From assembly GCA_014871385.1 (NCBI GenBank), contig CM026431.1, positions 7,189,778-7,253,777 of the forward strand: DNA of 64,000 bases, written 5' to 3'. Shown in pieces: positions 1,323 through 40,010 of this stretch (positions within the stretch are counted from its first letter, which is position 1; each line of letters begins with the position of its first letter). Origin of the DNA: Ceratodon purpureus (taxonomy: Eukaryota > Streptophyta > Bryopsida > Pseudoditrichales > Ditrichaceae). The notes under the pieces were generated by a model, which saw only the letters and a list, made by a program, of their open reading frames with translations, searched no databases and was not told the DNA's origin. A program made the position numbers and the translations under genes.

Positions 1323-1839
1323 AAGAGAAAAATTACTGAGGGGGTTGTCATTGATGTCGAACATACAAGGAAAATTTACAAAAACCAAAAACAAGGGCTG
1401 CCGTTACATTTACAAGTTCGCAAAATTACGCGGTTTAGAAGTCTGAAGCCCCAATTCCTACCACATCTGCCCTGCCCTGATTAGAACATAGGGTACTACG
1501 TTAGCCTGTGCCGCAAGTCTATCATCGCCACTCCCAGCCCAGTGCATGATTGCTGCGATTGAAGGACCACGTGTAGATCCAAACCGGCCCCTCTCAGAGA
1601 AGAGGGCGAAGGGCGAATTGATAAAAAAAATAAAAATGGAGAGCCGTTCCACTCAGACACGGAGCCGTGAACTCTCAACAGGTGTGCCTAGCAGCTGCTG
1701 TTTTGACAATGATGCAGCCACGTCGCGGAGGAGTCCTGTAATCACGCATAGCCTTCAACTCCCTGGCGGCTCTTGCAACCGCTGTGTCCTGTACCCGCCC
1801 CGATGCAATCCAGAGAAGAGAAAAATTACTGAGGGGGTT
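1323..1839 (+). repeat. 24-bp direct repeat pair flanking 1347-1815
   Basis: A 24-nt sequence (it begins AAGAGAAAAATTACTGAG and ends GGGGGTT) occurs at 1323-1346 and exactly again at 1816-1839, the second copy overlapping the stop codon of the piggyBac gene. The segment between them, about 470 bp, has no clear gene. It may be a local duplication or an insertion scar; I cannot tell which. Confidence 0.6.
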
Positions 1840-3460
1840 AGCGTGGAAGGCGACTTAGACGCTCATGAACAACATGATAGCAGCTCTGAGGGCACATCCA
1901 CTGATTGCCACATGCAGGACAGTACCAACGTCCAACATGTCCACACTCAACGCACTTTCGTTTCAGAGCAGAATGCCAATGGGAATGAACGGGCCCAGGC
2001 CGCCGCTGTCGTGGAGGGGCGCATGCAGCAGTGCGAGGTCTCTCCGCAAGCCACTTTGCCACCAATTGCTTCCCGACCGCAATGTTGAAGTGCATGTGAG
2101 TTGGCACTTTCAGACCGAGACTCTCCATAGCTGAAACGTAGACTACATAGGAATTCACGACGCTCTGGTCGACAATGAAGAAAAAGAGTTTGTGCCACCA
2201 CTTGTGGCTTCGAAGCTGGGATGAGTAGTTAGCTCGGATCTGGTCACCAACGTCAACTCCTCTCATAAATTCTTGATACTGGAGGAGAATAGGGGAGGCA
2301 GGGACTATAAGCTGGCCACGCATGCCAGGAACTCTACGGAGCACATTCAGGCCCGGCTCCCACGGGCTCGCAGCAGTGCTCAAAAGTGTCACAAGACACT
2401 TGTCCTGCCATGACACAACTCCCATCTGCCTATGGTTGTGTGTGCGGATCAGCATGGAACCCCTCTCCTTGTCCGAGCTCTCCCGGTACAGGCCGCTGGG
2501 CAAGTTCTTGCTTGATCTTCTAACTGTTCCGGTAGCCCAGTAGCCCAGGCACATGAGCTCATGAAAAAGGTTGACTGAAGCGAACAAGTTGTCCACGACC
2601 AGGCAATGCCAGCGTCGTTCAAGACCTGCCACCAATCGCATCACAACATGGTATCCCAATCCGTGCCACCCCATACCTGTGCCTTCTCCAAAGTAGACCT
2701 CGATGTTAGAAACAAACCTGGACTTCGAACTGGCTAAGACCCAGCACTTGATTCCAAACCTCACAAGCTTGTCTTTCATGAATTGCCGAATAAAACAATA
2801 CTGACCCTTGTAGGGGATGACACATTCGTCGACTGTGATCTCACGTTCAAGGTTGTAAATCTCTTTAGACACCCCCACGAACATGTCTATGATCCAGCGC
2901 GTCTTCGCAATTCTGTCAAACTGTGGGGAACGTAAATCCCTGACTACATCCCTGTTGTTTACAAGATGCAAACAGCGGAGCAGCTCCGACCACCTAGCCA
3001 AGCTCATGACGCTGGAAATGAGAGTACAGAAGATGAAACCTTCTCCACGCAGCCAGTAATGTTTCACCGCGGGCAATCTCTTCACGCCCATGAGAATACA
3101 GACACCCAGCCATGCCCGGAGCTCAGATACGGTAACATCCTTCCACCTTGGCCCCCCCTTGGTCCTTGAATCACCGGCTCTTCCACTGCCCTCCCTTGCG
3201 TAGCGATTCGTCTCCTCCACTATCCTTCCAAGCGTCTCGGGAGTCCAGTACAAATCGAACACTTCTGTAACTCCTGGCACCGAATCTCCTGCATTTCGGT
3301 ACCCAGGCTGAGGCCCGCAGAAGTTGTCCCTGCTCCCAAGCAATGACACTTTGTCTGCGTTCCAGCTTTCTGCTCTATAGAAAGCCTGCAATTGGTGTAA
3401 TTCCAGGTGTCCCGGCATGAAAGACTTTGTACTTTCGCACCACTCCATGAAGTCCCGAGG
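1838..3460 (-). CDS. piggyBac-derived transposase, 3' part of an interrupted gene
   Basis: This is the catalytic half of a piggyBac-type (DDE_Tnp_1_7) transposase. From the first ATG (3448) it reads 536 residues without a stop. Near residue 65 is the family's usual entry (FDLYWTPE then NRYA). The catalytic aspartates sit in TVDECVIPYKG (D207), VVDNLFAS (D286) and RGVDVGDQ (D399, with D402), a spacing close to insect piggyBac. The C-terminus is a cysteine-rich knuckle (C499, C502, C510, C513, C519, C523, then H), the family's DNA-binding domain. The frame stays open upstream of the ATG through the direct repeat at 3451-3460, then runs into inserted DNA. The N-terminal exons lie at 19753-23138. 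Whether the gene is a transposon or a domesticated copy is open; I found no TTAA-flanked ends for it. Confidence 0.85.
   Translation of the reverse strand, partial: PRDFMEWCESTKSFMPGHLELHQLQAFYRAESWNADKVSLLGSRDNFCGPQPGYRNAGDSVPGVTEVFDLYWTPETLGRIVEETNRYAREGSGRAGDSRTKGGPRWKDVTVSELRAWLGVCILMGVKRLPAVKHYWLRGEGFIFCTLISSVMSLARWSELLRCLHLVNNRDVVRDLRSPQFDRIAKTRWIIDMFVGVSKEIYNLEREITVDECVIPYKGQYCFIRQFMKDKLVRFGIKCWVLASSKSRFVSNIEVYFGEGTGMGWHGLGYHVVMRLVAGLERRWHCLVVDNLFASVNLFHELMCLGYWATGTVRRSSKNLPSGLYRESSDKERGSMLIRTHNHRQMGVVSWQDKCLVTLLSTAASPWEPGLNVLRRVPGMRGQLIVPASPILLQYQEFMRGVDVGDQIRANYSSQLRSHKWWHKLFFFIVDQSVVNSYVVYVSAMESLGLKVPTHMHFNIAVGKQLVAKWLAERPRTAACAPPRQRRPGPVHSHWHSALKRKCVECGHVGRWYCPACGNQWMCPQSCYHVVHERLSRLPR
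3451..3460. repeat. Target-site duplication, left copy (AGTCCCGAGG)
   Basis: The ten bases AGTCCCGAGG recur in the same orientation at 19753-19762. On the minus strand they encode P-R-D inside the piggyBac gene. A 9-10 bp duplication is what Mutator-like transposases make. The last G may belong to the element, so the duplication is 9 or 10 bp. Confidence 0.8.
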
Positions 3461-3579
3461 GGGGAAAGTTCGTACGTGAGCGGAGAGCGTAGAGCGGAGA
3501 GCGGTGAGCGCAGAATGGAGAGCACAGAATTGAGAATTAGGAAAATTTTCAAAAGCAAAGTAGACCCTATAACCGTGGA
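3461..3579 (+). repeat. Left terminal inverted repeat of the 16-kb insert
   Basis: It starts GGGGAAAGTTCGTACGTGAG and runs into a GAGAGCG/GAGCGG minisatellite to about 3535. It ends in the box ACCCTATAACCGTGGA (3564-3579). The same order of motifs, inverted, is found at 19752-19545. The minisatellite part is nearly identical; the spacer before the box is shorter here than on the right. Confidence 0.8.
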
Positions 3580-3837
3580 AAATTACTAAATTAAGGCTTG
3601 ATTTTGACACTTTTTTTAGAAAAAGAGTATATTACCGTGGAAATTAGGATTATCTCTGGTAAGAATTTATTACGTTTGTTCTCTAAGATACAAATTAGGG
3701 CTGATGTCATGATGACGTCATGCATATATTTTGTTATATTTCTCATGGATTTAGGCAAGATATAATGATCAGGCGTTAAGTTTTAGACCAAACAAATAAT
3801 TCTTTCATAGGATTATGTAAATGCACAAGGAAAAAAA

Positions 3838-4830
3838 CAAATTTGAAAGAACGTAAAGGAGGCAAGGTTTGAAAACTTCCTGGAATATTTCAAAATTCGT
3901 GTATAATATCTTAACTGCTGAAACCAAGATATACCTTGTTAGAGTCCTTGTCTTCATCGAAGAGTACTCTCTCTTCGTAGGCAGCAAAGCATCTTCATTT
4001 CAGTGATACAAGTAGGAGATTTTCATCATCAAACAACACTTGGTAAGCTGGGTTCCAGAGAAGGAGGTCACTCTTGGTTTATTGAGCTTGTCTCTAGATG
4101 GCGTATTTGGATAGTGACACAGTCCTTGGCATGCTGTGCTGTATGCGAAGGTAGCGTAGGAGTTCGGGGATGTCAATCTGCAAGCTTGTCTGTAACGTTT
4201 TAAGACTACAAGAATTCAGTGTGTTGCGCGATGTCGAAGGTGTGTAATGCAAGATCCAGGAGGACGAGAGCGGCTGTAGGTTTGCCCCCAAAGGCACCGG
4301 CGAGTTATGAGGAGCTGCGGCCGTGGCTGCTGGAGGTGGAGCGCGCCAGGGAACGAGGCATGGACCTGCCACCGTTTAGGCACATCGGAAGCCTCCATGT
4401 TGGTGAAGGTGAATGGCGTTGGACAGTGCTTTGTACCAATGAGCTTCTCCGTATTATGGAGTTGTCCCTAATCCCGTATCCCTTGCTATCGAACGTCGAT
4501 GAGAATCCAGTTGTTCAGCTGCCCGAAGTGATCATATCGGATGGCGAAACTTGCTGGTTTGATATGGACAAGAGTTGGACTGTATATCCTTCGAAGGATT
4601 AGTACTATGAAGTCTAGTGGGGTGTTCCAATACAATCCTTAAGATTTGGTCATTCATTAGATCTAGATACGAGTATTCCAGCATGATGGTTTTAGATAAT
4701 ATAGATGATTCTAGAAATAAGAAAAGAAAAATCAACTACAAGAAATGGTCTTAGAAGTCCGTGGAATATTTCAGAGTTCGTGTACAATAATGGAGTAGCA
4801 GAAACCAAAATGTACACCAACTCGAGAATA
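3838..4830. repeat. Diverged direct repeats bracketing a small ORF
   Basis: The sequence around 3865-3935 (GGAATATTTCAAAATTCGTG) is repeated in diverged form around 4750-4820 (GGAATATTTCAGAGTTCGTG). Both continue into GCTGAAACCAA/GCAGAAACCAA and a similar tail. The copies look about 70% alike over about 80 bp and lie on both sides of the ORF at 4231-4602. This could be a captured segment with old flanking repeats. Confidence 0.5.
4231..4602 (+). CDS. Hypothetical 123-aa protein inside the MULE element
   Basis: An uninterrupted ORF begins with ATG at 4231 (MSKVCNARSRRTRAA) and ends VYPSKD. It starts basic, has a charged middle (LEVERARERGMD) and a C-terminal half rich in acidic and aromatic residues (ETCWFDMDKSW). 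I recognise no domain and saw no splice sites that would extend it. It lies in element DNA between diverged direct repeats, transcribed toward the 3' end of the cargo gene. It could be a real accessory gene, one exon of a larger gene, or a captured fragment. Confidence 0.4.
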   Translation: MSKVCNARSRRTRAAVGLPPKAPASYEELRPWLLEVERARERGMDLPPFRHIGSLHVGEGEWRWTVLCTNELLRIMELSLIPYPLLSNVDENPVVQLPEVIISDGETCWFDMDKSWTVYPSKD

Positions 4831-5115
4831 GGTAACATGGCTATGCAAATGTGGGATTTTGAATGAGTAAAATATAAATAACAGCACAATATTATATTTG
4901 AGCCTAGGTTTTGTAACATTTCATTCTTCATATTATATTTTGAGCATTACAGTTGTGACATTTCATCCTTTACAAACACGGAGACAAATTGGATATGAGA
5001 ATCATAACAAGTTTAGGTTTAGGGTAGTAGAGTAGACGAAGGATTACCCAATGAACTCCAATTAAATCAAATCAAATCAAATGAAAACAACAATAGACCG
5101 AAGCCTACTTCAAAC
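4603..5115. other. AT-rich spacer inside the element
   Basis: There is no gene here. The stretch contains the right copy of the diverged direct repeat (about 4740-4830), two near-copies of a TGACATTTCAT motif (about 4915-4975) and a short AATCA run at 5062-5083, just past the stop codon of the cargo gene, where its 3' UTR would lie. Confidence 0.5.
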
Positions 5116-8100
5116 TCACAACATGCTACAGTCGGTACTTTCACTCTCAGAACTAGATGACTCTGAATCTCCTTCTACCGCCTCGTCATCGACAAATAGA
5201 AGGGCCCTGGGATCAAAACTAGTTGGCCGACTAGGAACATATGTAAGGGCTCCAGATTGAAACGCCTGTGCTAAGCCCTCTGCGTAGTCCGGAAGTATGA
5301 AAGGCTGAATCGGGCTGGAATGAAGACGCCACGATGGAGTGGACACTGCTCTTGGCTCACGTGGCGGTGATGCAGAAACTACTCTGCAATAGAGAACCGA
5401 TTGTGGTTAGATCTTGTACGTAGAGCTGGAAAGAGAAGTAATGCTTGGATAATGTGAACGAAGAATAGAAGACGTACACCACTTGTCAGGTCTTGCTCTC
5501 TTTGGAGGCGCTTCGCCTGTTGCTGCCGGCCTTGGATGTTTAGGAGGGCCCATGGCGGATGGTTTGAGAAGGGCGTTGAATATGGCTTCGTCCTCCTCAA
5601 AAGCGAGAATGTGACGACCAACAGCCTGGGCGGCCTTGATGGAGGCCCCTGAAACTCGAAGAGAAACAAAGAAATGAGATATTTTGGAAAAAACGAGAGG
5701 AGAAATGAAGCAGAGATATGTAAGAGAGATACCTGTCCCAGCATTCCAGTCAACGACTATGTCGCCGGGCTTGGACAGCTCCTCAATGATGTTCTGCATC
5801 ATCTCAGGGGATTTCTCCCTTGGGCCTCTCCACGGCACCTCCCCATTCATGAGCTGCGAATCCACATCGGTGAAGTTGAAAATGGCATCACTCTCGGTAA
5901 TGTTGAGGAGCCCATGTATCAGGTCTTCCTTCTTCGTCTGGAAGGAGAAAGTACTGCCACTACGAACGTAGACGCGAATCCAGAACCGCATAGTCTGCAG
6001 TCAAGCAGAACTAGTGAGTAAAATTAAGCGGAAGGGTTATCAGTAAGCGAAGAGAAGGGCATGTTTAGGAAAAGTACCAAGTTCTCGGGGTTCGTAGGAG
6101 AAGTCAGGCCGAGTACATTGACACCCCACCAGTCCTTGAACAGCACGTATCCACCAGCAGCAGCTTCTTCCTCGATATCCTTAGCCAGCTTCTGATCAGT
6201 GTTGTAGATGAGGCAGATGGCACCATCTTTCTGCAGGAAATCATCTGCAAAATGGAAGATGTCGTACAAATAATCCTTGTAGCGAGAGTTCCAAGGCGGA
6301 ATACTCGTGGGGGGAACGGAAACGGATGGGACGGGAAGATTCTCAGGGATGTCGGCAATGATCAAGTCGACTCCCAGATGGTCCTCTTGTTTGCACCGGT
6401 CCCCAACTATGTTTTCGCGGCCTGCTCCAAACTTGAGGAAACAAGAAAGCAGAGTTACTAACTACATAGCGAGTAGAGGTGGCAGAATCCATTAGATGTC
6501 AAAATATAGGAACAAACCTTGCGAATGAAGTCTTGAGTCTTGATCCAATCCGGGTCGCCCCCTTTATTCTCCTGTCTTCTATTTCGCCGTAACAAGGAAT
6601 CCACAGATGAGTTGAAGACGGAAACATGTGTGGAAATCGAAGCTCCAGCTGAAGAAGTTGTTTGAGGATATAGTTTGGCCTTCCTCTGCTGAAGGAGACC
6701 TCTGGTGATCTCCGAAGCACTGATCGATGAAGGAGCCGGCGAAGAAGCTGGAGAAGGGTTCGTAACGACAATACCCGGAGAGGGCTCTGGTGCCTTCTCA
6801 GTTGGCGCGGAAGACTCCGCACCAGTTTGCTGTGATGCCTCTGAACGAGAACCCAGAGATTTCAGTCGCCTTCCTCTCCCTCTCTTCGGTGGAGGAGCAG
6901 AAGACTGATCCTGCTCTCCTTCAGGACGTTCTGCATCATCCACGGAGTCCTCCACGAGAACCGCACCTCCATCGTGCAGCATCTTGACTTCCGCCTCGGA
7001 GTCAATAGTGAAACCACCAATACAATCAAGATACCAGCATCCAGCGTCCAGGTGAGCAGCTTTGTACCTTTTTATCTGCTGGGGAGAATAGATACACTCG
7101 TCCGAGGTTGTCTGCGTCCAAAGCTTGAAGTACATGGGGAGTTGCTGAACGCTGATGGCCCCCTTCAAAAGAAGCTCTCGCTTGAAGTATCTATGGGAAG
7201 ACACAAAGGAGGTAAGTATAAGAAACAATGACAATGAGAACTATGAAATGGAAATGCGATTAAGTGAGGTAATGTACCGGAAAGTAACCCGCTTGACAAC
7301 TTGAGCGGTTCCAGGGAATTTAGCGAAGTTGGATTTCTTGTCGAAGTGCTTCACAGCTTTTTTTCCTATGAACGTAGGGAAGGCCTTCTCCCACAAGAGA
7401 ATACGTGAGCTTTCGACAAAATCGCCCGGCTGTTGGACATCAGGAAATGCCATCCAATTGATATCGAGGTTCTCAAACTTGAATATGTCCTCGACTTCGT
7501 GGATGACGGCTTCCTCCAACTGTAATTAAAAATTCATATAAGTAGCAGCGAAGAAGGAATACAGTAAAAAAATAAAGGAACAAGGAATTCGAAAGAAATT
7601 TTTAATGAAAATTACCCCAGCCCAGAATGAAGCTTTGTTCAACCATGGGTCGAATTCGGTGTCTTTGAATTCAGATGGCAGAAATCTGTAAGACGTTCGA
7701 GCACTAGGGGATGAGTTCCACCACTTCAACCAACGAGCCTTGTATTTGGCCTCAACGGCCGCTGGAACAACCTTCTGAAGCTTATCGACTGACATCTCAG
7801 GCTTATTGTTGAGACTGAAATGGCGATTAATCTGCAAGAAGCACGAATGTATGAGAAAGATAAATACAGAAATTAATGAAGTCATACGAAACAGTGAATT
7901 GAACAATGATCAGTGAGTCACCTCATTGAGGAAGTCGTCACCATTCTTGGGATTTGCAATGGCCAAGTACTTGGTAAAGTCCTTCTTCTTGATGGCTTCG
8001 ACCATTCTCTCTGATGCCTCATTCATGACATCCCAAACTGCACTTGCAGACTGCTCATCCACGGGTGTCTTCAAGCGGTAGGCATTTGCTGCTTCATCGG

Positions 8101-11100
8101 AGGCCGCAGCAAGTTCCCGCTGTAGATAGATAATTCAGGCTTAGGAAATTCCATGAGTATTGAAGAATAAGAAGCAAATAGAGAGAGGAGGTAGTACTTA
8201 CTCGGTACAGAAATGCGATGAAAACTTTAGTTGTCAAGGGAAACCACGATGGATTAGGTGGCTTGTTCTTCAAACATGCGTCATACTCTTCAGGACTTAG
8301 GAGGTCTTTGAATTCCTCAAGCTTCATCATTCCAAAAGAGCGGATTCGAAATAGTTTTGCAGGGAGATTACTCTTGACGTGGTCATTCTCAGTCGACCTG
8401 AAAAGAAACCAAAATACGTATGATGAATAAAGGAGATGAGATTAAGTAACAAATGAAAAACAGGAGAAAAGAAACAAGTACTTACCAGTTGATGTCATGC
8501 ATTGCGTGAAGAAGATTGCCAACATGGCCACGGGGATCGAGTACTATGCAGTTCACTGATATGTGCCATGACGGGTCCTCTGCATGATGCTTGTTGATAT
8601 GCCGAAGCCATGCTGAGAGGCGATGGTTACCTTCCCAGACAAAAAACATCTTCCCCGAGAAATGCGACCAGTCCTCGTCACTTTGAAGCTCAAATTCAAA
8701 GGCATCATTCGCGTCCCTCCATAATGGGCTCCATCTAGCCATGACCTCATCCGTAACATCTCTTGTTTGCTCTTCGTTGTTGTACATGGAGATGTACATG
8801 ACGCGGTCGCCATCTCTATACCCCTTGACGAACTCCCGCTCCAAATGCTGCACACCCACTTCGCCCACTGGTCTGACCTTTGCCATTGGGATCATCCTGC
8901 ACAGGGGCACCGACATTCGGGACTTCTGCGATGGCTTGATCCTGAGCTTGTTGATGACGGCGTTGGTGTTCACCTTGTATTTGGTTTGATGTTCCAATTC
9001 CCCTTCTGTGGCAGTCTTCAAGTTTATCGGACAAGATGGTTTCACCAACACATCTTGTGTTTGCGTAACCTGCCAGAAGGTGCGCAAATTAGGAGAACAA
9101 GCACAATCGAAGGAAGTCATGCAAAGTAGACAATTGTGTAAAAGAAAGTAACAATATATCTTCATACTGTCATCTCTCTTTTAACAACTCAATCATCATC
9201 TGTGATTGATAAAACTATCTACGTGATGCACGACTATAGTACTCCTTAGACTGTCTACAGTTCCAGTGACGGCGCCTCCTCCAAAATCGCCTGGTCTGTT
9301 GGACAGGGCACGGTAGAATAGCCGGCAGAGCAAAGACGACATGGGCTGGCCTCCTGACTCTAATCGGCGAGGAAGGAGAGGGTGGAGACATCGGCGGAGA
9401 GCCCTGTGGAGGAGACGTGGGCATGTAGCCCGGGGAGGTAGGCTCATACACCGGGGATGTAGGCATGTACACTGGAGAGGTAGGCATGTACACTGGCGAG
9501 GTAGGCATGTACTGAGGAGAGTGGACCTCCAGAGGTCCACTTTCCACACCTACAGGGTTGGCTACATCACAGGTACAATAAGGCTGATCAAATGAATCCG
9601 AAAGATCGGAAACATTGATCACAGAAATGGGGGAGGTGGCGGACATCTCAGGAGCATCGGATGATACCTAGAGTAGGAGAAATGAAGAGAGGATTAACTT
9701 CCATTATTCAAGGAGTAGGAAACAAAGAAGGGAAGAGGGCGAATAAAACTCAAAATCATGAACATTAAAAAAGAAGAAAAATTGTAGATTGAATGAAATA
9801 CCTCAGTTTCTGCTGGCGTAGGGTCTTGACGTTCGCTCCCCAGATGATCACCATCAGAGTCCTAAGCAAATTGATAATTATTAGAAAAAATTGCAACTAT
9901 GAAGAATCAAACCTCAACCTAGACACAACTCCCAATAAAATCTTAAAGACTTATAAAAGACTTTCATTAAGACTTTGTGACTGTAATGGCATCCACATAT
10001 CACAAACATTCAAAGAAATAATCAAATATAAAGAATTTGCAAAAATCCCCGAAAAATCCCCCACGGCCCCGGCCTACTGTCGTTGACGACAGTAGGCTTG
10101 GGTTATTTTTATTGTTTTTAAATCTCAAAAAAAAACTATCAAAATACGAATAATTAAACACAAAAATTCAGACTTTAATTAAGACTTTGTGACTGTAATG
10201 GCATCCACATAACACAAACATTCAAAGAAATAAAAAAATATAAAGAATTTGCAAAAATCCCCGAAATTGCCCCCACGGCCCCGGCCTACTGTCGTTGACG
10301 ACAGTAGGCTTGGGTTATTTTATTTTTTTTAAATCTCATCAAAAAACTATCAAAATACGTATAATTAAACACAAAAATTCAGACTTTAATTAAGACTTTG
10401 TGACTGTAATGGCATCCACATAACACAAACATTCAAAGGAATAAAAAAATATAAAGAATTTGCAAAAATCCCCGAAATTGCCCCACGGCCCCGGCCTACT
10501 GTCGTTGACGACAGTAGGCTTGGGTTATTTTATTTTTTTTAAATCTCATCAAAAAACTATCAAAATACGTATAATTAAACACAAAAATTCAGACTTTAAT
10601 TAAGACTTTGTGACTGTAATGGCATCCACATAACACAAACATTCAAAGAAATAAAAAAATATAAAGAATTTGCAAAAATCCCCGAAATTGCCCCCACGGC
10701 CCCGGCCTACTGTCGTTGACGACAGTAGGCTTGGGTTATTTTATTTTTTTTAAATCTCATCAAAAAACTATCAAAATACGTATAATTAAACACAAAAATT
10801 CAGACTTTAATTAAGACTTTGTGACTGTAATGGCATCCACATAACACAAACATTCAAAGAAATAAAAAAATATAAAGAATTTGCAAAAATCCCCGAAATT
10901 GCCCCCACGGCCCCGGCCTACTGTCGTTGACGACAGTAGGCTTGGGTTATTTTATTTTTTTTAAATCTCATCAAAAAACTATCAAAATACGTATAATTAA
11001 ACACAAAATTTCAGACTTTCATTAAAACTATGTGATTGTTATCGCATCCACACAAATATACACCAAAATAATACCAAAATAACACAAAATAACACCAAAA

Positions 11101-13031
11101 TAACACAAAATAACACCAAAATAAAAAAAATAAAAATAAAAAACAAAAATCCCGAAAATGATCCCCTCGTCCCCGGCCTACTGTCGTTGACGACAGTAGG
11201 CTCGGAGGTATTTCAAATTTTTAAAAAAAAAATACGTACCAATAAAATACGAATATATATCCAAAAACTTCACATTAAAACTAATATACTCTTATCAACT
11301 ATGCATTTTAATTACACATAAATTAACCCAAAAATATAAAAATAAAAAAGAAAAATAAAAATCCCGAAATTGTTCCCCCCGTCCCAGGCCTACTGTCGTT
11401 GACGACAGTAGGCTTGGAGGTATTTCAAAATTTTTAAAAAAAAATACGTACCAATAAAATACGAATATAAATCCAAAAACTTCACATTAATACTAATTTA
11501 CTCTTATCAACTATGCATTTTAATCACATAAATTAACCCAAAAATATAAAAATAAAAAAGAAAAATAAGAATCCCGAAATTGATCCCCCCGTCCCCGGCC
11601 TACTGTCGTTGACGACAGTAGGCTTGGAGGAATTACAAAATTTAAAAAAAAATAATACATACCAATAAAATACGAATATAAATCCAAGAGCTTCAGATTT
11701 AAACTAATTTACTCATATCAACTATGCATTTTAATTACACATAAATTAACCCAAAAATATAAAAATAAAAAAGAAAAATAAGAATCCCGAAATTGATCCC
11801 CCCGTCCCCGGCCTACTGTCGTTGACGACAGTAGGCTTGGAGGAATTACAAAATTTTAAAAAAAATATACATACCAATAAAATACGAATATAAATCCAAG
11901 AGCTTCAGATTTAAACTAATTTACTCATATCAACTATGCATTTTAATTACACATAAATTAACCCAAAAATATAAAAATAAAAAAGAAAAATAAAAATCCC
12001 GAAATTGTTCCCCCCGTCCCCGGCCTACTGTCGTTGACGACAGTAGGCTTGGAGGAATTACAAAATTTAAAAAAAAAAAACATACCAATAAAATACGAAT
12101 ATAAATCCAAAAGCTTCACATTTAAACTAATTTACTCATATCAACTATGCATTTTAATCACACATAAATTAACCCAAAAATATAAAAAAAAAAAGAAAAA
12201 TAAAAATCCCGAAATTGTTCCCCCCGTCCCCGGCCTACTGTCGTTGACGACAGTAGGCTTGGAGGAATTACAAAATTTAAAAAAAAAAAAAAAACCAATA
12301 AAATACGAATATAAATCCAAAAGCTTCACATTTAAACTAATTTACTCATATCAACTATGCATTTTAATCACACATAAATTAACCCAAAAATATAAAAATA
12401 AAAAATAAAAATAAAAATCCCGAAATTGTTCCCCCCGTCCCCGGCCTACTGTCGTTGACGACAGTAGGCTTGGAGGTATTACAAAATTAAAAATTCGAGA
12501 CGCAAAAAGCAGCTCAAGCAACATTCGGAACCCAAGAAGCACCAACAAGCAACATTCGCAACTTGCAACCAAGCCGCAACCAAGCAACCTGCAACCTACA
12601 ACCAAGCCGCAACCTGCACCAACATTCACCAAACTTGAAACCCACAACCCGCAAGGAAACCCAATCCCCCACCAAGCAATCCGCAACCCGAAATCGGACC
12701 AAGCACCTCAAGCAACATTCGGAACTCAACACCAAGTCAAACCCCATCAACCCGTACGACAAGTTCCGTACCCCAAGCATTCAATCCCCATCAACCCGTG
12801 CGTCAAGATCCGAACCCCAAGCAATCGTACCTGCTCTGTATCTTCGCGTTCTCCCTCCTCATCGTCCTCATCATTTCCCTCCTGCTCCTCTCTCGGATCC
12901 CCAGGTGGCGCGAGCTGCTCCTCCTCTCCTCCCCGCTCCTCCACCGCCATGTCGATGGCAGCCTGCTCCACAGCCTCGGCACCAACCTCCGCCACAAGCC
13001 CTGCCCTCACCTCCTCCTCCCTCGCAGCCAT
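5116..13031 (-). CDS. ParB/Srx-like plus beta-class DNA methyltransferase-like protein with CTD-like heptads (element cargo)
   Basis: Thirteen exons by frame-consistent GT-AG sites: 13031-12831, 9861-9802, 9667 to about 9300 (donor unresolved), 9068-8486, 8397-8202, 8119-7922, 7831-7616, 7519-7278, 7190-6518, 6431-6078, 5994-5733, 5648 to about 5478, about 5381-5116; roughly 1200-1250 residues. In order: an acidic, Glu-rich start; five heptads of type YMPTSPV (9511-9407); a ParB/sulfiredoxin-like fold (IPMAKVRPVG, then EGNHRLSAW and a beta strand ending CIVLDP); an unrecognised middle; a Ser/Pro linker with a GRGRR patch; then a Rossmann methyltransferase in beta-class order, with motif IV DLIIADIPENLP first and the SAM-binding part PGDIVVDWNAGTG last. 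The usual catalytic DPP[YW] is DIPE, so activity is doubtful. The end is acidic and Ser-rich. The domain calls come from motifs, not searches; ParB is the weaker one. Confidence 0.75.
9407..9511 (-). other. Five RNA polymerase II CTD-like heptads in the cargo protein
   Basis: The translated repeats are YMPTSPV three times, YEPTSPG and YMPTSPP, matching the Y-x-P-T-S-P-x frame of the Rpb1 tail (YSPTSPS). They are followed by more Ser-Pro pairs (GSPPMSPPSPSSP). At DNA level the unit is a 21-bp repeat (GTAGGCATGTACACTGG in the plus strand). Such repeats could recruit CTD-binding factors, or may only be a low-complexity Pro/Ser expansion. Confidence 0.85.
9880..12490. repeat. Tandem array, 12 units of about 211 bp, each with a conserved 26-nt palindrome
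   Basis: The core is GCCTACTGTCGT, then TG, then ACGACAGTAGGC: 12-bp arms and a 2-nt centre. Cores start at 10072, 10284, 10494, 10705, 10916, 11176, 11388, 11598, 11811, 12023, 12233 and 12444, so the spacing is 210-213 bp except for one 260-bp step. The first five units share one AT-rich flank (TTAATTAAGACTTTGTGACT) and the last seven another (AACTATGCATTTTAATTA). Both keep the CCCGAAATTG and CCCC block before the palindrome. The core is invariant in all 12 copies while flanks drift. The array fills intron 1 of the cargo gene. Confidence 0.95.
12503..12800. repeat. CAACC-rich low-complexity stretch
   Basis: The stretch repeats motifs such as GCAACATTCGGAAC, GCAACC and CATCAACCCGT several times over about 300 bp. 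It sits between the palindrome array and exon 1 of the cargo gene, still within intron 1. Translations on both strands are simple-repeat peptides and are not treated as genes. Confidence 0.7.
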
Positions 13032-13083
13032 TGCAATGCCTCCTTCACCTGCTCGGAAAATCTGAAATCTCGCTCTCCTCGCG
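13032..13083. promoter_or_regulatory. Short head-to-head intergenic gap in the element
   Basis: Only 52 bp separate the ATG of the minus-strand cargo gene (13031) from a plus-strand ATG (13084) that opens a small spliced frame. If both are real starts, this gap would lie inside a bidirectional promoter or the 5' UTRs. I see no clear TATA box. Confidence 0.3.
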
Positions 13084-13252
13084 ATGGCAGCTAAATGGTC
13101 GAGTTCACGACCCTCTTCAAAAGGTGAGTCTATACTTCTATCTCCCTCTACCCTTATCCCTTCGTTACTCTACACATTAATTTAAAAAATTTACAGCCGT
13201 GAGTACTACCGAATGTGAGTTTAAGCAGATGCTCCGGTACTTATCACAATAA
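13084..13252 (+). CDS. Possible small 5' exons, upstream of the transposase gene
   Basis: An ATG at 13084 reads MAAKWSSSRPSSK to a good donor (AAAAG/GTGAGT at 13124). An acceptor TTTACAG at 13196 leads to a second short frame ending at a TAA (13250-13252). A further strong donor (GTGAGT) follows CCGAAT at about 13213. These could be leader exons of the MULE transposase gene that starts further downstream, or a 31-residue upstream ORF. No domain is visible. Confidence 0.3.
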
Positions 13253-13305
13253 AATTGATATAATGTGAATAGTAATGCGTTTACACTTTAGAATTTTGAA
13301 TTGAT

Positions 13306-13788
13306 TTAAACAATGCACAGCAGTGAAGTCGGTGTAAAAATGCTTACCGTTCCGGAGTTGAAATATAAATCTGTTTGAGAACCCACCTCCCCTGTCGAAA
13401 TTTCATTGAAGCTAATAGAAGGTTGCGGTGTCTCAACTCTTTGACTACAATTAAAAACTAATTCTTCCGTCATGGCCTCAAGTCCAACTCCACTTAAATG
13501 TACCTCCTGCTCGTGATTATCGACTACTGTGTTCTCTAAAAACTCTTCCTTGTCCTCCACTATAGAGTCTAGAATGACTTTGCGAATGCTAGAAAATTTC
13601 AATGCTACTGGCAGACCTCCTCCTCTCCTTTTCACGGGTGCACTCAAATGGTCAACATTTAAATCTACCTTCTTACGTGATGCTCTCCTCTTTCTAGCTC
13701 TTCTATTCGTAAAATCAGTGCGGCCTGGTTTCCTTCTCTGTTTAGGAGTAACATAACTGGAGGGAGATGGCCCTCCACCCTGCTTCAT
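13306..13788 (-). CDS. Hypothetical basic/acidic protein in the element
   Basis: The first ATG is at 13788. The product starts very basic (TPKQRRKPGRTDFTNRRARK, then RRASRKK), which suggests a nuclear-localisation or DNA-contact tail, and turns acidic later (VEDKEEFLEN). Unspliced it ends at 13306. A clean donor (ACG/GTAAGC, exon end 13348) suggests a further exon that I could not place. No known domain is recognised. A short VKRRGGGLP motif resembles NRRRGGGPL in the other small minus ORF at 18795, so the two may be related accessory genes. Confidence 0.4.
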   Translation of the reverse strand: MKQGGGPSPSSYVTPKQRRKPGRTDFTNRRARKRRASRKKVDLNVDHLSAPVKRRGGGLPVALKFSSIRKVILDSIVEDKEEFLENTVVDNHEQEVHLSGVGLEAMTEELVFNCSQRVETPQPSISFNEISTGEVGSQTDLYFNSGTVSIFTPTSLLCIV

Positions 13789-13800
13789 GTGTCTAACCAC

Positions 13801-14328
13801 AGGAAGGACTCTCTCACAAAAAGACTTTCATGAGAAATTCCTGCCAGCTTAAATACCTCTCACGTACAACTATTTTCCTAGAACCCTAAGATGATATACA
13901 ATCTCAACCATTGACACATTGTCTGCCCACTTTATATTAAGAGTAAAATTAACAATTCTGTAATATAAGCTAGGTTCAAAATATCAACCTTTAATTATAA
14001 GGACTATATCTAAGTACACTATAAATTGAAAGATTTGAATCAAGCACTTCAATCATGCTCCTTTTTAGATTCATTGTTTTAAATGTAGTTTTGAATTGAC
14101 GGCTCCCTCATATCTTATAATACATCATGAAAAATAGAATCCGCTCTACGATTCAAATATTAAAGTAGAGTTAAATATACATTACCTCATATACTTAGAC
14201 CTGCATAAAGTGGCACTGTAATTAGTTAGCGCCGTCTCTATTAAATCATACATTCGTTACGTAACAGACAGAATCATTCCCCAACTGTTGACATGGACAT
14301 TTCACCTTGAATAAAAAGATCAAGAGCG
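13801..14328. other. AT-rich spacer upstream of the transposase
   Basis: No coding region is supported. This would hold the promoter and 5' UTR or intron of the plus-strand transposase gene and the promoter of the minus-strand ORF at 13788. I see no repeat or clear promoter motif. Confidence 0.4.
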
Positions 14329-17300
14329 ATGCATCATTCCTCTCACTTTGCTCTCGCGTACAGTCAGTGCTCCCTTCTTTCCGCTCCTACGATTGACTTG
14401 CCTGCGAATATGGGGATGGTCTGTCTCTACGCCCAAGGCATGGGCATCCCTCTTAGGTTTCGCGTAGATGACGACGGTCTAGCTACAGTCTCCTCTCTTC
14501 GCCTAAGCCTCAGATTCCATTTCCGTGAGGATTCCATCAGTATAGAGGAGGAGATCTTCGATGACGTTACTGCCGAGGTTACCCACACCCTTGGGCAACC
14601 TTCAGTGAGAGATGAAAACAATATGTTGCAGTGGAGACTCCTCCCTGGATCCTATAGAGTCTATGGTCTTACTGATTCTCTGATGGCTGCATCCACTGAA
14701 ATCCTCACCCCCCGTCGCTCTTCTACTTGCACAATTCAGACTCCCTTACCTCGTGATGTCAAGGTCAAAGTCGAGCCTGGAACGGAGACTTCAGATGTAG
14801 AGAAACCTCCTCCGACGGTCATATCTCTCTCTTCTGATGACGAAGTCAGTCCCGTCAAGTTGGTGCCTAAGGTCCACGCAGATGCTCCTCCTTCCGATGT
14901 GTCTCCTCCATTGTCCCAGGTCACAGTTAGCATTGTTCCGCTCCTTAAAGAGATTGCTAAGACGCGTGGGTCCAAAAACATTTTGAAGAAGATAGACTAT
15001 TCCACTATTAGACACGAGAGAGTAGAGTACTTGCCTGCGAAGTTTGATGGTCCGGTTCTTTTTGAGTTGCCCCTAGCTGCTGCAGGATCCTCTAAGCTCG
15101 CCGCCAAGTCAATGCAGGGAATGGACAAATGATACGACGGACACTTGTGGACCAAAACCATCACAACAAACATCAAAAACGACTTCGAACTCTCTTTTCG
15201 AAGTTCCACCTGCGTCGGATGGCTGCGTTGCAGCAACAAGGAGTGTGACTTTCTGAAGCGTGTTCCCAAGATCTTTGAGGTTAACGAGACTGAGTTCGAA
15301 GGCTGTACCCTGCAAGCTTTTGTCATGGACCAGCCTCCTCCATCTGACTCCACGCTTGTGTGCAAGGTATGTAAAGAACCTCCATCATGTGTATCTACAT
15401 GCGAGGCTAAGATTTATTACGTTGTGGGCAAACCGAATCAGACTAGAGCGTGTATTCACATAGGAACACATGATCACCCAGTGAAAGTAGGAGACTACAG
15501 AGACTCTAAAGCAGAGATTAGTAGCTTAATAGAAGAGCAGGTAGAGATGAACAACAAAGCAACGAAGAGCGCCGTTGTCTTGGAGGCGAGCAAACTCCTC
15601 ATCGGGAGCTACCTTCTACAGCCCGAGGATGCACCACCGAGGAAACTGACGATGGAGGAGCTGGTTCCTGTTCTGGATCGATGCAAAGACATGGCGTCGC
15701 CCAACATCCGCAACAAAGTCGCCACCTTCAAAAAATTTGTCAGGTACGGAATCATGGACGGTATCACCAAGCTCCGTGGTAACAGTCTCTGGGCGTATGT
15801 CCAGGAGAATAGGTTTCCTGGTCAGGGATCTATGCGTGACAAAGTCTTTGTCTTCAAGATGTCGGAGGTCGGGCCGGGCAGTGGTGTCGACTTGGTCAGC
15901 CGTATGCAAGCTGGTGGCGACTTGGAGAACGCATGGATCATGTTCGACCATGTCAAACGCGTCAAAGATTGGTCGACGATGGCGTGCCATGTGTACGACG
16001 CCACCTACTGCCGCGTGATGACTATCGCCACTTGCGACATGCAGTCCGAGGACACGGACGCCCAGCTCGTCTTCTGGAAAAACCTGAACCTGGTCATGGA
16101 GATCAATGGCGTTGCAGCGCCGAACTTCAAGGGGTTCATGGCGGATAACGCACAGGCGAATTGGAATGCAGTGCGAATCCTTTACGGCAATGGCAACAAA
16201 GAGGACCCAATGGAGGACCGGGAGAGGTCGTGCTTGTTCCACTGGACTCAGAACATGGTGGCGTATACGCAGAAGCACTTCCCCGAAGAACTCTGGGAAC
16301 AGCACAAGAAGATGTGCACTCAGTACAAAAATGCGACCAGCATGGTAGAGGCGGAAACTCTGTACCACGCGTTGCGAGCATGGTGGGCATCCACCGGGGT
16401 CGTTGGCGAGAGCGGGCTCATCAAACTCGATCAGTGGCTGTCATTCTGGCACCACCGCTTCCGCCAGTGGGGGGGATTCATGACCGAGGTATTATCTCTG
16501 CACTCTGTTTTAATGTTTTTGATATTGGTTTCCTAGCCCTAACCTACAAAACTCTAATCCGTGAATCTAACGGCATGTACTGTCAAATCTGCAGAAATTC
16601 ACGAAAGAGGAACTCACAGAGATGCCCACTTGTAACCTCGCCGAAACAGTTCACAACAAGTGGCTCCAAGCTTCTGGAAACAACGGGAACGACCTCTACG
16701 TTGCTACCGTGGACGATTTCGTTCGAGCATTTCTACAGGTTGTCAACTACTACCAGTTCCTAAAAGGTGACGTCGGCGGAACAGGACCATCCAAGAAGGA
16801 ACTCAGGCTTCGGATGGCGGAACGCAACGCGAAGAAATGGGGAAATCCTACACTGCTCGACAAGCCCATGCTCGATATGCCAGGCGCGGATGAGTTCTGC
16901 ACCCGTCAGCCTATCATGCCAGGAGCGGAAGTCTTCGGTTCACAAAAGCGAAAAGCCGACGTCCTTATCGGAGCTGACGAAGAGTCTCATCGCCCGGATA
17001 AGACAAACTTCTCGCGCCCAAGAGGCCCAAGACGTGCCGTCAGGGCTCGCCCTATGCAGATGCCCGTCATTGTGGAAGACGACTCCGAACACGACACCGA
17101 GGTACAATGTACCCAACCTCCTGCCCAAGAAGTTGATTCCCCTTTACCTTCACCAGTGAACAAGGGCGGCATTCGCCATGTCAACGCGGTTGAAGAAACC
17201 AAGGTGGACGTGAAGGAGTGGCACATTTCGAGACTTCACAAACTTTCTGCGAAGTGCTGCTGGGCCCAAAGAGCTGAAACGAAGAAGAAGTGCACTGAGA

Positions 17301-18088
17301 GAATCGTCAGGGGGCCCCATTGCACAGCTGCACCGACCTACACTGGGCTCTGGACTAACTATCGCAGGAACCTTGTGGAGAAGACGGAGTTCTTCTTCTG
17401 CTCCGACGATATTGAGCGCTGCGTGAAAGGCTCTAAGCGCAAGTGGGTAGCACACTACTCAAAGGACCAGGAATTCCCCTCCATTCCAGAGGTGTGGCCA
17501 GTGAAACTAGGTACTAACCTAAAACTTACTGAGATTCTTGCCCTCGAAGCAGCGGGCTTCCAACTTCCGCAGAAGAAACCGGTCTCCCCAAGACGCCTCT
17601 TCTCCTGTGCCCCGCCTCCTGCAAATCTCAGCTCAGTGCCAGTCCCTGCAGACGCTGACCGCTACCCAGGCAAGAGAGACGGCAAGATGGTGAAGCGCAC
17701 TGCCACTCGTCCCAATCAAGCGCAGCGACTCTCCATGGGCTCCTCCGAATCTCTTAAAGCACGCCTCCGTTCCATCACCATGATACCTGAGCCGGGCCAC
17801 GGTTGCATCATTGGGCTGGATTCGGGCGTCGCTCCACACATCACACGGTACCAGATTACCATCAGTTCTTACCCTGGTTGCACTTGCCCAGCATTCAAGA
17901 AGACAATGACTACGTTCCGTGGGAAGACTCAGTTCACGTATTGTAAGCACCTATACTACATATTCTTGAAGGTCTGCAACCGTGATCCCGAAGCGGAGCT
18001 TTTCATCCATGCGCCTACCTTCAGCTTCTACGAGGTCAAGCTACTCTTAGAGAGTGGAATCTTGCGTCACCCCTTGGCGAAGAAGTAG
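14329..18088 (+). CDS. Mutator-like transposase with SWIM zinc finger, broken by one in-frame TGA
   Basis: Exons are 14329-16488 and 16595-18088, both in frame. The first part (to 15129) holds an N-terminal region rich in beta-strand residues and a SUMO-interacting-like motif (VISLSSDDE). A TGA at 15130-15132 interrupts the frame, which then continues (YDGHLWTKT) with no ATG nearby. Next come a GCM/WRKY-type zinc finger (CVGWLRCSNKEC, ending IGTHDHPV) and a MULE catalytic core: HVYDATYCRV and FMADNAQANW carry the two expected Asp residues, and the Glu lies further on. After the intron are a Pro/Ser-rich linker with acidic patches (VIVEDDSEHD) and a C-terminal SWIM finger (CTCPAF then YCKHLYYI). 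The TGA makes this copy probably defective unless it is spliced out or read through. It is the likely mobilising enzyme of the element. Confidence 0.8.
15130..15132 (+). other. In-frame TGA within the transposase gene
   Basis: Counting from the ATG at 14329, the TGA is codon 268. The downstream frame is open for over 1,300 bases, and its first possible initiator is not an ATG. I found no GT-AG pair that removes the stop without also removing the zinc-finger start. Confidence 0.8.
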
Positions 18089-18342
18089 GTAGCCCTCCTA
18101 CTTTAGAACTTCCATTTTCACAATGGCCATTTGTCACGTAGTGAATGATTTTAGTAATATACCATATACTAAGTCAGCTATTGAGAAGCTGTATTGACTT
18201 TTTCATTATATTAAAGGCTTTGGCGTTCACATTGATTGCATTCTATTTCAATACATTGTATCTTGAAGAAGTGCACTATATACCTCGTATCCCCTGCCAT
18301 GTACCCTTTATTAAGGCAAACATATACTTGTTATTAGATGTC

Positions 18343-18795
18343 CTAATCTTCGAACCTAACACGTTTAGGGTTGCCCACTACACTATCAGCAGGACTGCCA
18401 GCCGCTGACTGTTCTACAGGAGAAACTACAGTCGCATTCACTTTCGTTCCCACACTTGGCAAATGTCCTTGGTATGATCGTTTCAGCAATGGCCCACCTC
18501 CCCGCCTCCGATTAACTGATTCCCTGGAATAGGTTCCCCTTGGGATCTTTCCAACCTTCGAGTATGCATGTGGTTGCAAAGGCACATCTGCGTCCTTCTC
18601 TAGCACTATGATTTCATCCGAATTTTCTGAACGTGGAGGGTCAGCTCTTACATCCGGTTGTACGTCAACATCCGTTGTCGAAGGACGCCCTTGGCTGTTG
18701 GCCATCACCTCTTCGTCGTCTTCCACCTCAACATATGGTTGAAATGGACAAACATCGTCAGCAAGTGAAACAACAATATCTCTGACGTCTTCCAT
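18343..18795 (-). CDS. Hypothetical 150-aa acidic protein in the element
   Basis: A single ORF begins with ATG at 18795 (MEDVRDIVVSLADDV) and ends KRVRFED. It has an acidic run (EVEDDEEV), a SUMO-interacting-like segment (EIIVLEKD) and a basic patch (NRRRGGGPLLKRSY). No domain is recognised. It is convergent with the transposase gene and lies 250 bp past its stop, inside the right end of the element. It may be an accessory protein or the last exon of an unresolved gene. Confidence 0.4.
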   Translation of the reverse strand: MEDVRDIVVSLADDVCPFQPYVEVEDDEEVMANSQGRPSTTDVDVQPDVRADPPRSENSDEIIVLEKDADVPLQPHAYSKVGKIPRGTYSRESVNRRRGGGPLLKRSYQGHLPSVGTKVNATVVSPVEQSAAGSPADSVVGNPKRVRFED

Positions 18796-19000
18796 AGCTG
18801 CTGTCCCGCCCTACGGAAAAGAGCTTCACAAAACACCAACACAAAAGAGGCAGAGACATTCCATAATCCTATCTTAAATATCCCTGAAGAAGATGCTTGG
18901 CCCCCTGAAAATCGGCTGTTCATTCATTTATAAGTTGTCATCCTCCTAAAACGAATGGAAAAAGATGAAGGCCTAGCAGAGGTCATTTAGCATTTAAAAT

Positions 19001-19033
<33 letters not shown>

Positions 19034-19544
19034 ATTTATAAAAAATGAAATTTAAAAGATGAAGTAAAGAATAGCAATATTTGATATGAAGGTTGAAAAT
19101 AATATGAAGGAGATTAACAAATTGAATGTGAAAATAAAATGATTGTGAAAATAAAATGAAGGAGAGAATTAAATGAAAAGAGGCTTTTGACCCCTCTAAC
19201 AAGATAGACATAATAAAGAAAATTTTATAAAAAATACAAGACAAATATCAAAAAAATTATAAAAAAATTGAAAAAAGGAGAAAGGCATGTAGACTATGGT
19301 GGATGAATTCTAGCAATGTTAAGAAAATGTTACGAAATTAAATGTTACTTGATCCCTGTTCAGAGGTTCAATACCAATACATTTTAAGTAGTAATTTGCA
19401 TATAAATTTAAGGAGATAAGGGGAATTACTGTATGCCTGAACTGGTAAGAAGGAGCTGGAGCATAGTAATTGGTGCACGCTATAAAATTAATCACCAAGA
19501 AAAGAGAATATGAACTACAAATTCAATGAAAATACTGTAATTAG
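18796..19544. other. AT-rich right-end region of the element
   Basis: There is no gene. The stretch contains a run of about 27 A at 19005-19031, preceded by T-rich DNA, and GAAAATAAAATGA repeats around 19130-19160. It leads into the right terminal inverted repeat. Confidence 0.5.
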
Positions 19545-19752
19545 TCCACGGTTATAGGGTCAATTAAATTACTATAATTAGTAACTTTCCAAAAATACAC
19601 TAAGAATATTCGAATCTTCTAATTTTATAATTTATTTTTAGTAAAAAATGTGCTATTTTTAGGTTCTGTCCCCCATTCTGTGCTCTCCGCTCTCCAAATC
19701 TGCGCTCACCGCTCTCCGCTCTGCGCTCTCCGCTCACGTACAAGCTTCCCTC
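19545..19752 (-). repeat. Right terminal inverted repeat of the 16-kb insert
   Basis: Read on the minus strand from 19752 it starts GAGGGAAGCTTGTACGTGAG and continues through a GAGAGCG/GAGCGG minisatellite to about 19672. After an AT-rich spacer it ends in the box ACCCTATAACCGTGGA (19560-19545). It mirrors 3461-3579, with a longer spacer and one extra minisatellite unit. Confidence 0.8.
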
Positions 19753-19762
19753 AGTCCCGAGG
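19753..19762. repeat. Target-site duplication, right copy (AGTCCCGAGG)
   Basis: This is the same ten bases and orientation as 3451-3460, immediately outside the right inverted repeat. On the minus strand it encodes P-R-D at the end of the piggyBac N-terminal part. The next codon in the present arrangement is a TGA contributed by the insert. Confidence 0.8.
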
Positions 19763-39292: not shown

Positions 39293-40010
39293 GGCGATGA
39301 ATGGCCGACTCGAAAGGAGAACTCGATTTCCAGATTTCGAACGTCACTTTTAAGACTTTTCAATAGCTTTGTGTTAATGCCACTGATTGCACGCGTCACG
39401 CCTCCCGTCCCCAGATTAGCCGTTCCTAATACTGTAGATGGCTATGTCCTGCTCATCTCCTCCGTCTTAGGCTTTTATTATAATGCCTAGTCCACTGTTA
39501 TGAGAACTATTCTCGGACCACATCGGCATTATTACATGTAAACCTAGAACTAATTGCCCCCATCTGTTTGAATCTTCCGCAGGGAGTCGAGCTGCATTGA
39601 GCCAGTGCACGTCTTTGTGGAGCTCTGATCTGAGCTCCAGAAGCTCACGAGAGCACTTGAACTTCAGTCTAGTACTGTGGATCGACTCGAGAGCGACTCT
39701 TCCTGGCGGCGGTGACTTTGCACTTGGTGGCATGATCTTAGGGCATCCTGATTGCTGGTGAAGGTGGTGGTGTTCAATCCAACAGTGTGTTGTCTGTTTG
39801 CGTTTTTGGGTGGATTCCAGCTTGACATCTCCCATGGGCAGTGGCGTTGCACTCTTTACCGACTGTTGTTTTGAGTTTCTCTGAGAGTTTGGGCTTTGTC
39901 TCTAGGAGAGGGACATACTCTGCTGGATTGAGAGGAGGATTTCACTTGTTGGTATGTGAGATAGAGTTTGATTTGGAGGGGATTGTGAGACACGGAGGTG
40001 TTGGAGTGCT

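Follow-up and report, generated by a model that had tools for sequence, protein, structure and literature searches.

A Mutator-like element of the moss Ceratodon purpureus with a regularly spaced palindrome array, a putative protein-docking site, in a methylase-derived gene

Introduction

The closest described counterparts of the locus treated here are the VANDAL elements of Arabidopsis, in which the element-encoded protein VANC binds short tandem motifs and removes DNA methylation (PMC5735166, PMC10398659). VANC targets a short motif repeated in tandem, which lies in introns of the VANC and VANB genes as well as upstream of VANA; the VANC proteins themselves also hold motifs in tandem, at the peptide level (PMC5735166). 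The locus is a stretch of 64,000 nucleotides from the moss Ceratodon purpureus (GenBank assembly GCA_014871385.1, contig CM026431.1, positions 7,189,778 to 7,253,777, forward strand; hereafter the window), which contains a 16,292-bp Mutator-like element (MULE) inserted in a piggyBac-type repeat.

Target-site duplications of MULEs range from 8 to 11 bp (PMC6446971). Abermu of barley, a MULE of more than 8 kb, has two extra open reading frames (ORFs), one of them in opposite orientation, and reaches a very high copy number (PMC9168764), and the Rehavkus and aphid Phantom MULEs carry minisatellites at or after the transposase ORF (PMC6446971). Large MULEs with extra ORFs and MULEs with minisatellites are already known; the moss insertion is ordinary, its cassette is not. 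The best overall explanation, to which a probability of roughly 0.6 is given, is an insertion of a member of a young family that carries a cassette with a putative docking array.

Insertion and Element Family

The preliminary description of the window had proposed that a single giant Mutator-like element recently split a piggyBac-derived gene in phase, leaving a perfect 10-bp duplication outside inverted ends. Its main lines hold: a DNA transposon of 16.3 kb has inserted once into a piggyBac-type repeat and belongs to a young, abundant family. The palindrome array, the methylase-derived gene and the copy number described below are additions to that description. The element lies at window positions 3461-19752 between perfect copies of AGTCCCGAGG, a string that occurs exactly twice in the window when both strands are searched, precisely at the element borders. 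Insertion site and ends are made up as follows.

1838..3450, minus strand: target, C-terminal part of a piggyBac-type transposase frame (open frame 1841-3451; PF13843, E 5.8e-69)
3451..3460, no strand assigned: left copy of the target-site duplication AGTCCCGAGG, identical to 19753-19762
3461..3523, plus strand: left terminal inverted repeat, starting GGGGAAAGTTCGTACGTGAGCGGAGAGCG; 90.5% over 63 columns to the right end; 40 scored genome matches, window included
19689..19752, minus strand: right terminal inverted repeat; 40 scored genome matches of the right end, window included
19753..19762, no strand assigned: right copy of the target-site duplication AGTCCCGAGG, identical in sequence to the left copy
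19763..20857, minus strand: target, N-terminal part of the same piggyBac-type frame, continuous with the left part in paralogues

The inverted ends were aligned between 3462-3523 and 19750-19689. The perfect 10-bp duplication, seen in all nine two-ended copies with the window included, and the long inverted repeats are both features of the Mutator superfamily, and by its ends and duplication the element is Mutator-like.

The minus-strand frames on both sides of the element meet in phase across one repeat copy, as read in the sequence. When the two parts are joined across the insertion point, the resulting protein finds a 98% match elsewhere in the genome (C4:6270385-6271077) over all 231 residues and with no stop, whereas the same query against the window itself returns two pieces, residues 1-96 and 90-231. 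The joined flanking DNA aligns gaplessly with one paralogue of the target (L051) over 770 bp at 99.0%, and with two others over 736 bp at 97.0% (L052) and 728 bp at 94.5% (L053); the junction of the first has a single AGTCCCGAGG, those of the other two variants with one and two changes. The empty site, which the preliminary description had proposed to seek in other accessions, is preserved in paralogues. The target holds a DDE_Tnp_1_7 domain (PF13843, above), so that the piggyBac part of the proposal stands, but it is not a single gene: the target family has at least 152 matches (150 of 708 candidates scored), which makes the event a nested insertion into a repeat family and not the loss of a unique gene. 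Elements of the piggyBac type use TTAA target sites and have inverted ends of their own.

The family was sampled in the 362.5-Mb assembly (151 contigs; the window is C11:7189778-7253777). The left-end query was window 3451-3600, for which 40 of 1,414 first-look candidates were scored; for the right end, 40 of 1,453 were scored. Among the 39 other left-end matches, 37 start at query position 6-11, near the element edge, the exceptions starting at position 3 (L003) and position 1 (L027). Ten further copies, 20 kb each, were picked among the best left-end matches. The right end was located in eight of them and not within 20 kb in L047 and L049. The eight two-ended copies are 15,313-18,902 bp long, and each has a perfect 10-bp duplication different from all others, with mismatches in the 9- and 11-bp registers. 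The proposed recency of the insertion is borne out by a full-length sister copy (L033): it is 99.8% identical in an alignment of 16,294 columns, in which 21 of the 16,281 aligned positions are substituted and five gap runs occur. A genome search with the transposase exon 15133-16488 found at least 93 loci (93 of 2,459 candidates scored), all matching over 452 amino acids (aa) at 98-100% identity, and 90 of these 93 are free of stops. The element family is young and large; its members share their ends and, in the copies examined, a transposase under strong purifying selection.

Several observations concern individual members. Family members (L037 at C2:3168549-3178548 with L038; L007; L030) are inserted in the transposase exon 2 region of relatives with 81-83% DNA identity, which points to a second, diverged subfamily in the genome. 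In L047/L048 (C7:9365020-9385019) the element match ends at query position 14669 of 16292, as in a truncated or interrupted copy. Window 12640-13240 is present in the window element and L033 and absent from the eight other aligned copies, a recent internal gain here or a loss elsewhere; an ORF at 12747-13169 was rejected as an exon, this stretch being found in only one of nine other aligned copies (L033). Two 120-bp bins, 5501-5620 and 3461-3580, have no variable site among 11 copies while neighbouring bins vary, and they may be unusually conserved or recently homogenised.

The Palindrome Array and Gene B

Inside the element, a large gene besides the transposase (gene B) encloses a tandem array between the first and second exon of its model:

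9958..12493, plus strand: tandem arrays of 211- and 212-bp units
10073..12468, no strand assigned: 12 exact palindromes CCTACTGTCGTTGACGACAGTAGG, the first at 10073-10096 and the last at 12445-12468 (mean 0.00 in 100 shuffles)

A 24-bp palindrome, CCTACTGTCGT-YR-ACGACAGTAGG, is present in all 11 copies examined, 4 to 50 times per copy and at a spacing of about 211 bp. The copies together have 162 palindromes, 150 with exact arms, and 136 of 151 spacings lie between 207 and 214 bp, 69 being exactly 211. Among 32 unit types (clustered at 85% identity) the palindrome is 0.96 identical and the remainder 0.52, and the best other 24-column window reaches 0.64 at most. The free positions of the palindrome are its two centre bases, where TG, CA and CG have each been seen. 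Across the genome the exact pattern is found at 1,725 sites, a number that rises to 2,033 when the four centre bases are left free, against none for a reversed control pattern; the 50 exact sites that were listed, all on C1, form four groups spaced by about 211 bp (one step of 228) or twice that, plus one last site. By the gene model, a conserved short motif is arrayed in tandem within an intron of an element gene. The largest array observed, 50 palindromes over 10.4 kb, is that of L049/L050 (C6:20014095-20034094).

Gene B was modelled by hand and comprises the following parts:

5116..9069, minus strand: C-terminal part, ten exons, about 1050 aa; open frame and conserved splice sites
9069-8486, 8397-8202, 8119-7922, 7831-7616, 7519-7278, 7190-6518, 6431-6078, 5994-5733, 5648-5483 and 5383-5116, minus strand: exons of the C-terminal part
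5483..6431, minus strand: beta-class N6/N4 DNA methylase-like domain (exons 6431-6078, 5994-5733 and 5648-5483; PF01555, E 1.1e-9)
9222..9861, minus strand: N-terminal part, made up of exon 9861-9802 and an exon from 9667 to about 9222; this second one contains PTSP tandem peptide repeats and has a ratio of nonsynonymous to synonymous differences per site (pN/pS) of 0.125
13348..13788, minus strand: first exon, a fast-changing stretch of 147 aa with the donor GTAAGC; its frame is open in the window as in all 9 copies in which it was located

In the C-terminal part, the 11 aligned copies share ten AG acceptors and nine GT donors, and the frame shows no stop and no length change in ten of the 11, L049 lacking one base in the last exon; pN/pS is 0.33 overall and 0.18 for exon 9069-8486. 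The match to PF01555 (39.1 bits, cut-off 26.7) includes the region of the S-adenosylmethionine (SAM)-binding motif, and the domain also matches a PHROG DNA methyltransferase (E 4e-11) and, below its cut-off, a CcrM model (E 2.8e-5). The catalytic motif of beta-class N6/N4 methylases is (D/N/S)PP(Y/F/W), for instance DPPY. At this place gene B reads DIPE in the window and in all ten other copies, so that the methylase catalytic motif is degenerate.

In the N-terminal part, the AG before exon 9861 is present in all 11 copies, and the PTSP-repeat exon matches an Rpb1-repeat model at E 0.0025, below cut-off. From 9667 this exon runs into a stop at 9215-9217 in all 11 rows; L035 and L041 have one earlier stop each. 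The first exon is 100% identical to that of the window in L033 and 69-73% identical at the aa level in the remaining eight of nine copies, each time followed by an in-frame GT, with no match in L049. Its pN/pS is 0.39 (pS 0.25, pN 0.10), and since both values are raised, old divergence or exchange is suggested in preference to positive selection.

Two small genes accompany gene B:

4231..4602, plus strand: gene A, 123 aa; frame stop-free in all 11 copies, with a pN/pS of 0.57 from a small number of differences; no Pfam match up to E 10
18343..18795, minus strand: gene D, 150 aa; stop-free in 9 of 9 rows, pN/pS 0.43; no Pfam match

Other Gene B Versions and Arrays

The same transposase occurs with other versions of gene B, and some of these elements have other arrays, one type with a 202-bp unit and an altered core, another with an unrelated 171-bp unit. 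Among the matches listed (150 of 2,555 candidates scored), the methylase exons of other loci have identities between 97% and 63%; counts of this exon are lower bounds, the window's own exon, a certain match, not being among those listed.

An element at C1:1.04 Mb (L055), with a methylase exon of 69% and a transposase of 99% identity, has 1.2 kb of a GC-rich 171-bp repeat (7.0 units) between these two genes. The unit lacks the 24-bp palindrome, and a BLAST comparison of the repeat with the 11 copies gave nothing at E 0.01. A genome pattern search (100 of 102 and 100 of 138 sites listed) placed it in at least nine positions:

C1:1.04, C2:10.32, C3:23.66, C4:0.91, C6:8.74, C6:91.99, C6:107.84, C10:12.52 and C12:2.68 Mb: 171-bp repeat

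Eight of these nine adjoin a methylase exon of 69% identity whose open frame is 314 aa long, which accounts for all eight such rows among the matches listed, and five of the eight also have a transposase match at 98-99% among those listed. At C2:10.32 Mb no methylase exon is listed nearby.

In the element at C1:6.07 Mb, whose methylase exon has 92% identity, the unit measures 202 bp and its palindrome is CCTACTGTCG-GCAA-CGACAGTAGG. Against the window element, the ten BLAST matches listed for this unit are all 24 bp long and lie at the palindrome; against the other copies, the twenty listed are all in L049 and extend over 33-41 bp around it. The GCAA array accompanies two of four judgeable rows with 90-93% methylase identity among the matches listed (C1:6.06 and C1:20.84 Mb). 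On C1, neither kind of palindrome is present upstream of position 5,396,454, and the elements at C1:1.04 and 5.19 Mb therefore have none. Single GCAA-core palindromes without neighbours of the same core among the matches listed were seen at C3:23.12, C3:23.30, C3:24.24 and C5:3.47 Mb; these are either mixed arrays or isolated sites.

Transposase and Superfamily

The transposase gene has one intron (GAG|GT...CAG|AAA):

14329..16488, plus strand: exon 1, start codon not certain; pN/pS 0.15 and 0.09; in-frame stop at 15130-15132 in the window copy
16595..18088, plus strand: exon 2, with a SWIM-like CxC...CxH near the C-terminus; pN/pS 0.11

From 14413 to 16488 and through exon 2 the frame is stop-free in all nine other copies covered (L049 lies outside the coverage). 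Because of its in-frame stop, the window copy is probably not autonomous. Upstream of 14413, the aligned stretch meets a stop eight codons in for L039 and L043 and differs by an indel in L041, which leaves the start codon uncertain.

Does this transposase belong to the Mutator superfamily? The earlier label 'Mutator-like' stands as far as duplication length and inverted ends go, but the Pfam MULE model does not recognise the protein, and membership in the superfamily is for this reason not established. An origin in a separate superfamily that also makes 10-bp duplications is rather unlikely. It would account for the lack of any match between the transposase and Pfam transposase models up to E 10, including the MULE DDE domain PF10551, which yet finds at least 93 loci elsewhere in the genome (of 384 candidates, 150 were scored, with the window's transposase exon not among the matches listed), and hhalign and BLASTP comparisons with one moss MULE (L054) gave nothing significant. 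Against it, the duplication falls within the MULE range of 8-11 bp (PMC6446971), the inverted ends are long, and the SWIM zinc finger PF04434 gives a weak match (E 0.087, 12.8 bits, below the cut-off of 19.6); furthermore DAT[FY], D[DN]A..NA[LV] and CxFHxxxN follow in the same order in the transposase and in L054, a likeness seen by eye and without a statistic. Searches further afield found no relative of the transposase exon in the PDB up to E 10, and among viral contigs none of the 18 pattern matches each for transposase and gene B exon was confirmed as a relative; the AlphaFold model of the transposase has a mean confidence (pLDDT) of 39.

A Docking Array or a Passive Repeat?

What keeps 24 letters nearly constant in units that otherwise differ at half their positions? 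The invariant letters, the two-fold symmetry and the near-constant helical phase (about 20 turns) suggest a dimeric DNA-binding protein that fills the array, and the turnover of the rest suggests that units are often remade while selection sees mainly the palindrome. The element thus probably uses the array to bind a protein. The obvious candidate for the binder is gene B, because it encloses the array and, in some versions, the two have changed in step. The mechanism proposed is that a dimeric element-encoded protein, most likely the gene B product, would bind the palindromes along the array, mark or open the chromatin of its own family as VANC does for VANDAL, and so protect the element from silencing. 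Ends and transposase would stay unchanged while gene and array are exchanged jointly as a cassette. That gene B is the binder and that its role is anti-silencing, by analogy with VANC, is a tentative proposal with somewhat less than even chances. More speculative still, and on balance doubtful, is the wider picture of a near-invariant chassis of ends and transposase with interchangeable cassettes, each an ex-methylase sequence reader with an intronic array of its own site, swapped between elements so that one host would hold several self-recognition specificities, independently of VANC.

A number of points weigh against this proposal. Units were collected at no more than four mismatches to the palindrome, which inflates its identity, and the spacings of 543, 597, 597 and 702 bp could conceal units without one. 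The ten further copies, picked among the best left-end matches, are all of one gene B type. An array that lies within gene B will travel with it whether or not the two interact. In the methylase exons purifying selection is not evident (pN/pS 0.92, from a small number of differences), and this domain may be under weak constraint; the stop at 9215-9217 suggests that the upstream and downstream parts of gene B may be two genes and not one, and the predicted structure of gene B is of low confidence (pLDDT 39). Of the other arrays, the 171-bp type was itself read in one element only (L055), and two of the four judgeable 90-93% methylase rows (C2:1.76 and C3:18.40 Mb) are without the GCAA array, so that the link between subtype and core is loose. 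Finally, a hint of low methylation from mutation bias is not claimed: transitions to transversions stand at 0.79 and 0.82 over whole modules versus 3:5, 14:8 and 28:12 in three piggyBac pairs, with non-significant Fisher p of 0.06 and 0.16 when the comparison is confined to coding sequence.

Alternatively, the array may be a passive intronic satellite in which the palindrome drives expansion through replication stalling or unequal exchange and no element protein takes part. Palindromes are able to extrude hairpins, and the expansion is strong, from 4 to 50 palindromes per copy. A structural role would, however, allow the two arms to change jointly, and the letters stay constant among units that are otherwise 52% identical; the spacing is also held near 211 bp. 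A larger conserved hairpin around the palindrome is not claimed, as a stem swap test (18 non-redundant of 75 unique flank pairs) was not significant, with p 0.053 on the plus strand and 5719 of 20000 permutations on the minus strand. Moreover, the 171-bp array of L055 expanded without this palindrome, which shows that expansion does not need it. The passive satellite is an improbable, though not negligible, account.

Less probable again is a role at the RNA level, with the palindromes forming hairpins in the transcript of gene B that would control the splicing of a long intron or give rise to small RNA. The gene B model does enclose the array, the isolated palindrome has a folding energy of -15.6 kcal/mol as RNA, and a hairpin forms in every listed unit; against this, RNA pairing alone does not need invariant arm letters, and the centres TG, CA and CG all occur. 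The idea that the borders reflect a chance match or two unrelated inserts, for which nothing was found, is refuted by the full-length sister copy, the perfect duplications of all two-ended copies and the empty sites.

Other Features of the Window

Outside the element and its target, the window contains host-type genes:

27568-28344, minus strand: HAUS5 augmin subunit
39972-40541, plus strand: lipid-transfer-type protein
48833-49435, plus strand: armadillo/HEAT-repeat protein
62307-63617, plus strand: protein kinase

A reverse transcriptase fragment at 45589-46224 on the minus strand (PF00078, E 3e-16) is probably the remnant of a long interspersed nuclear element (LINE). No Rfam family and no tRNA was found in the window.

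Comparison with Known Systems

Among other MULEs, Abermu resembles the moss element in its size, its extra ORFs, one of them reversed, and its high copy number (PMC9168764), and MuDR of maize likewise has a second gene besides the transposase (PMC6446971). The differences are that Abermu encodes a named mutator transposase and that the terms 'tandem repeat' and 'palindrom' are absent from the text of PMC9168764; for MuDR and the minisatellite MULEs no methylase-derived gene is named, 'methyltransferase' being absent from PMC6446971. Neither a fixed-spacing palindrome array with a methylase-derived partner nor a report of the present element family was found in the literature searched, which is weak evidence, few subscription papers being covered.

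The domain of gene B matches the C-terminal part of CcrM and RsrI (6pbd, 1eg2) that holds the SAM-binding motif, and differs from these enzymes in its DIPE motif and in a constraint that is not evident. Phage proteins exist that fuse ParB-like and methylase domains. In gene B, the stretch GNHRLSAWL resembles the ParB motif GxHR, by eye, and a methylase domain follows; unlike those fusions, however, gene B matches no ParB family of Pfam, NCBIfam or PHROGs. A reading as a ParB/parS partition system was set aside, since neither family models nor the predicted fold (pLDDT 39, as above) support a ParB domain.

The most extensive parallel is with VANDAL and VANC. In both cases a Mutator-like element carries a transposase plus extra genes (PMC5735166, PMC10398659), a short conserved motif forms tandem repeats in introns of the element's own genes, the repeats diverge fast between related copies, and an extra gene holds tandem peptide repeats. 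The moss motif differs in being a 24-bp palindrome at near-constant spacing, that of VANDAL being a nine-base motif in one orientation, and the moss extra gene is derived from a beta-class DNA methylase in an element of 15-19 kb. A Pfam search of genes A, B and D gave no VANC-like family, a result limited by the fact that Pfam may contain no VANC model and that no VANC sequence was compared. If the array is the docking site of an element-encoded protein, a moss transposon would have arrived independently at an anti-silencing design of the VANDAL type, using another protein and, as its target, palindromes held at a fixed helical spacing. A testable general rule would follow, namely that large plant DNA transposons may persist by means of private, fast-turning addressing systems. 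The moss is suited to such a test: with a young family and different cassettes in one genome, binding specificity can be compared directly between versions.

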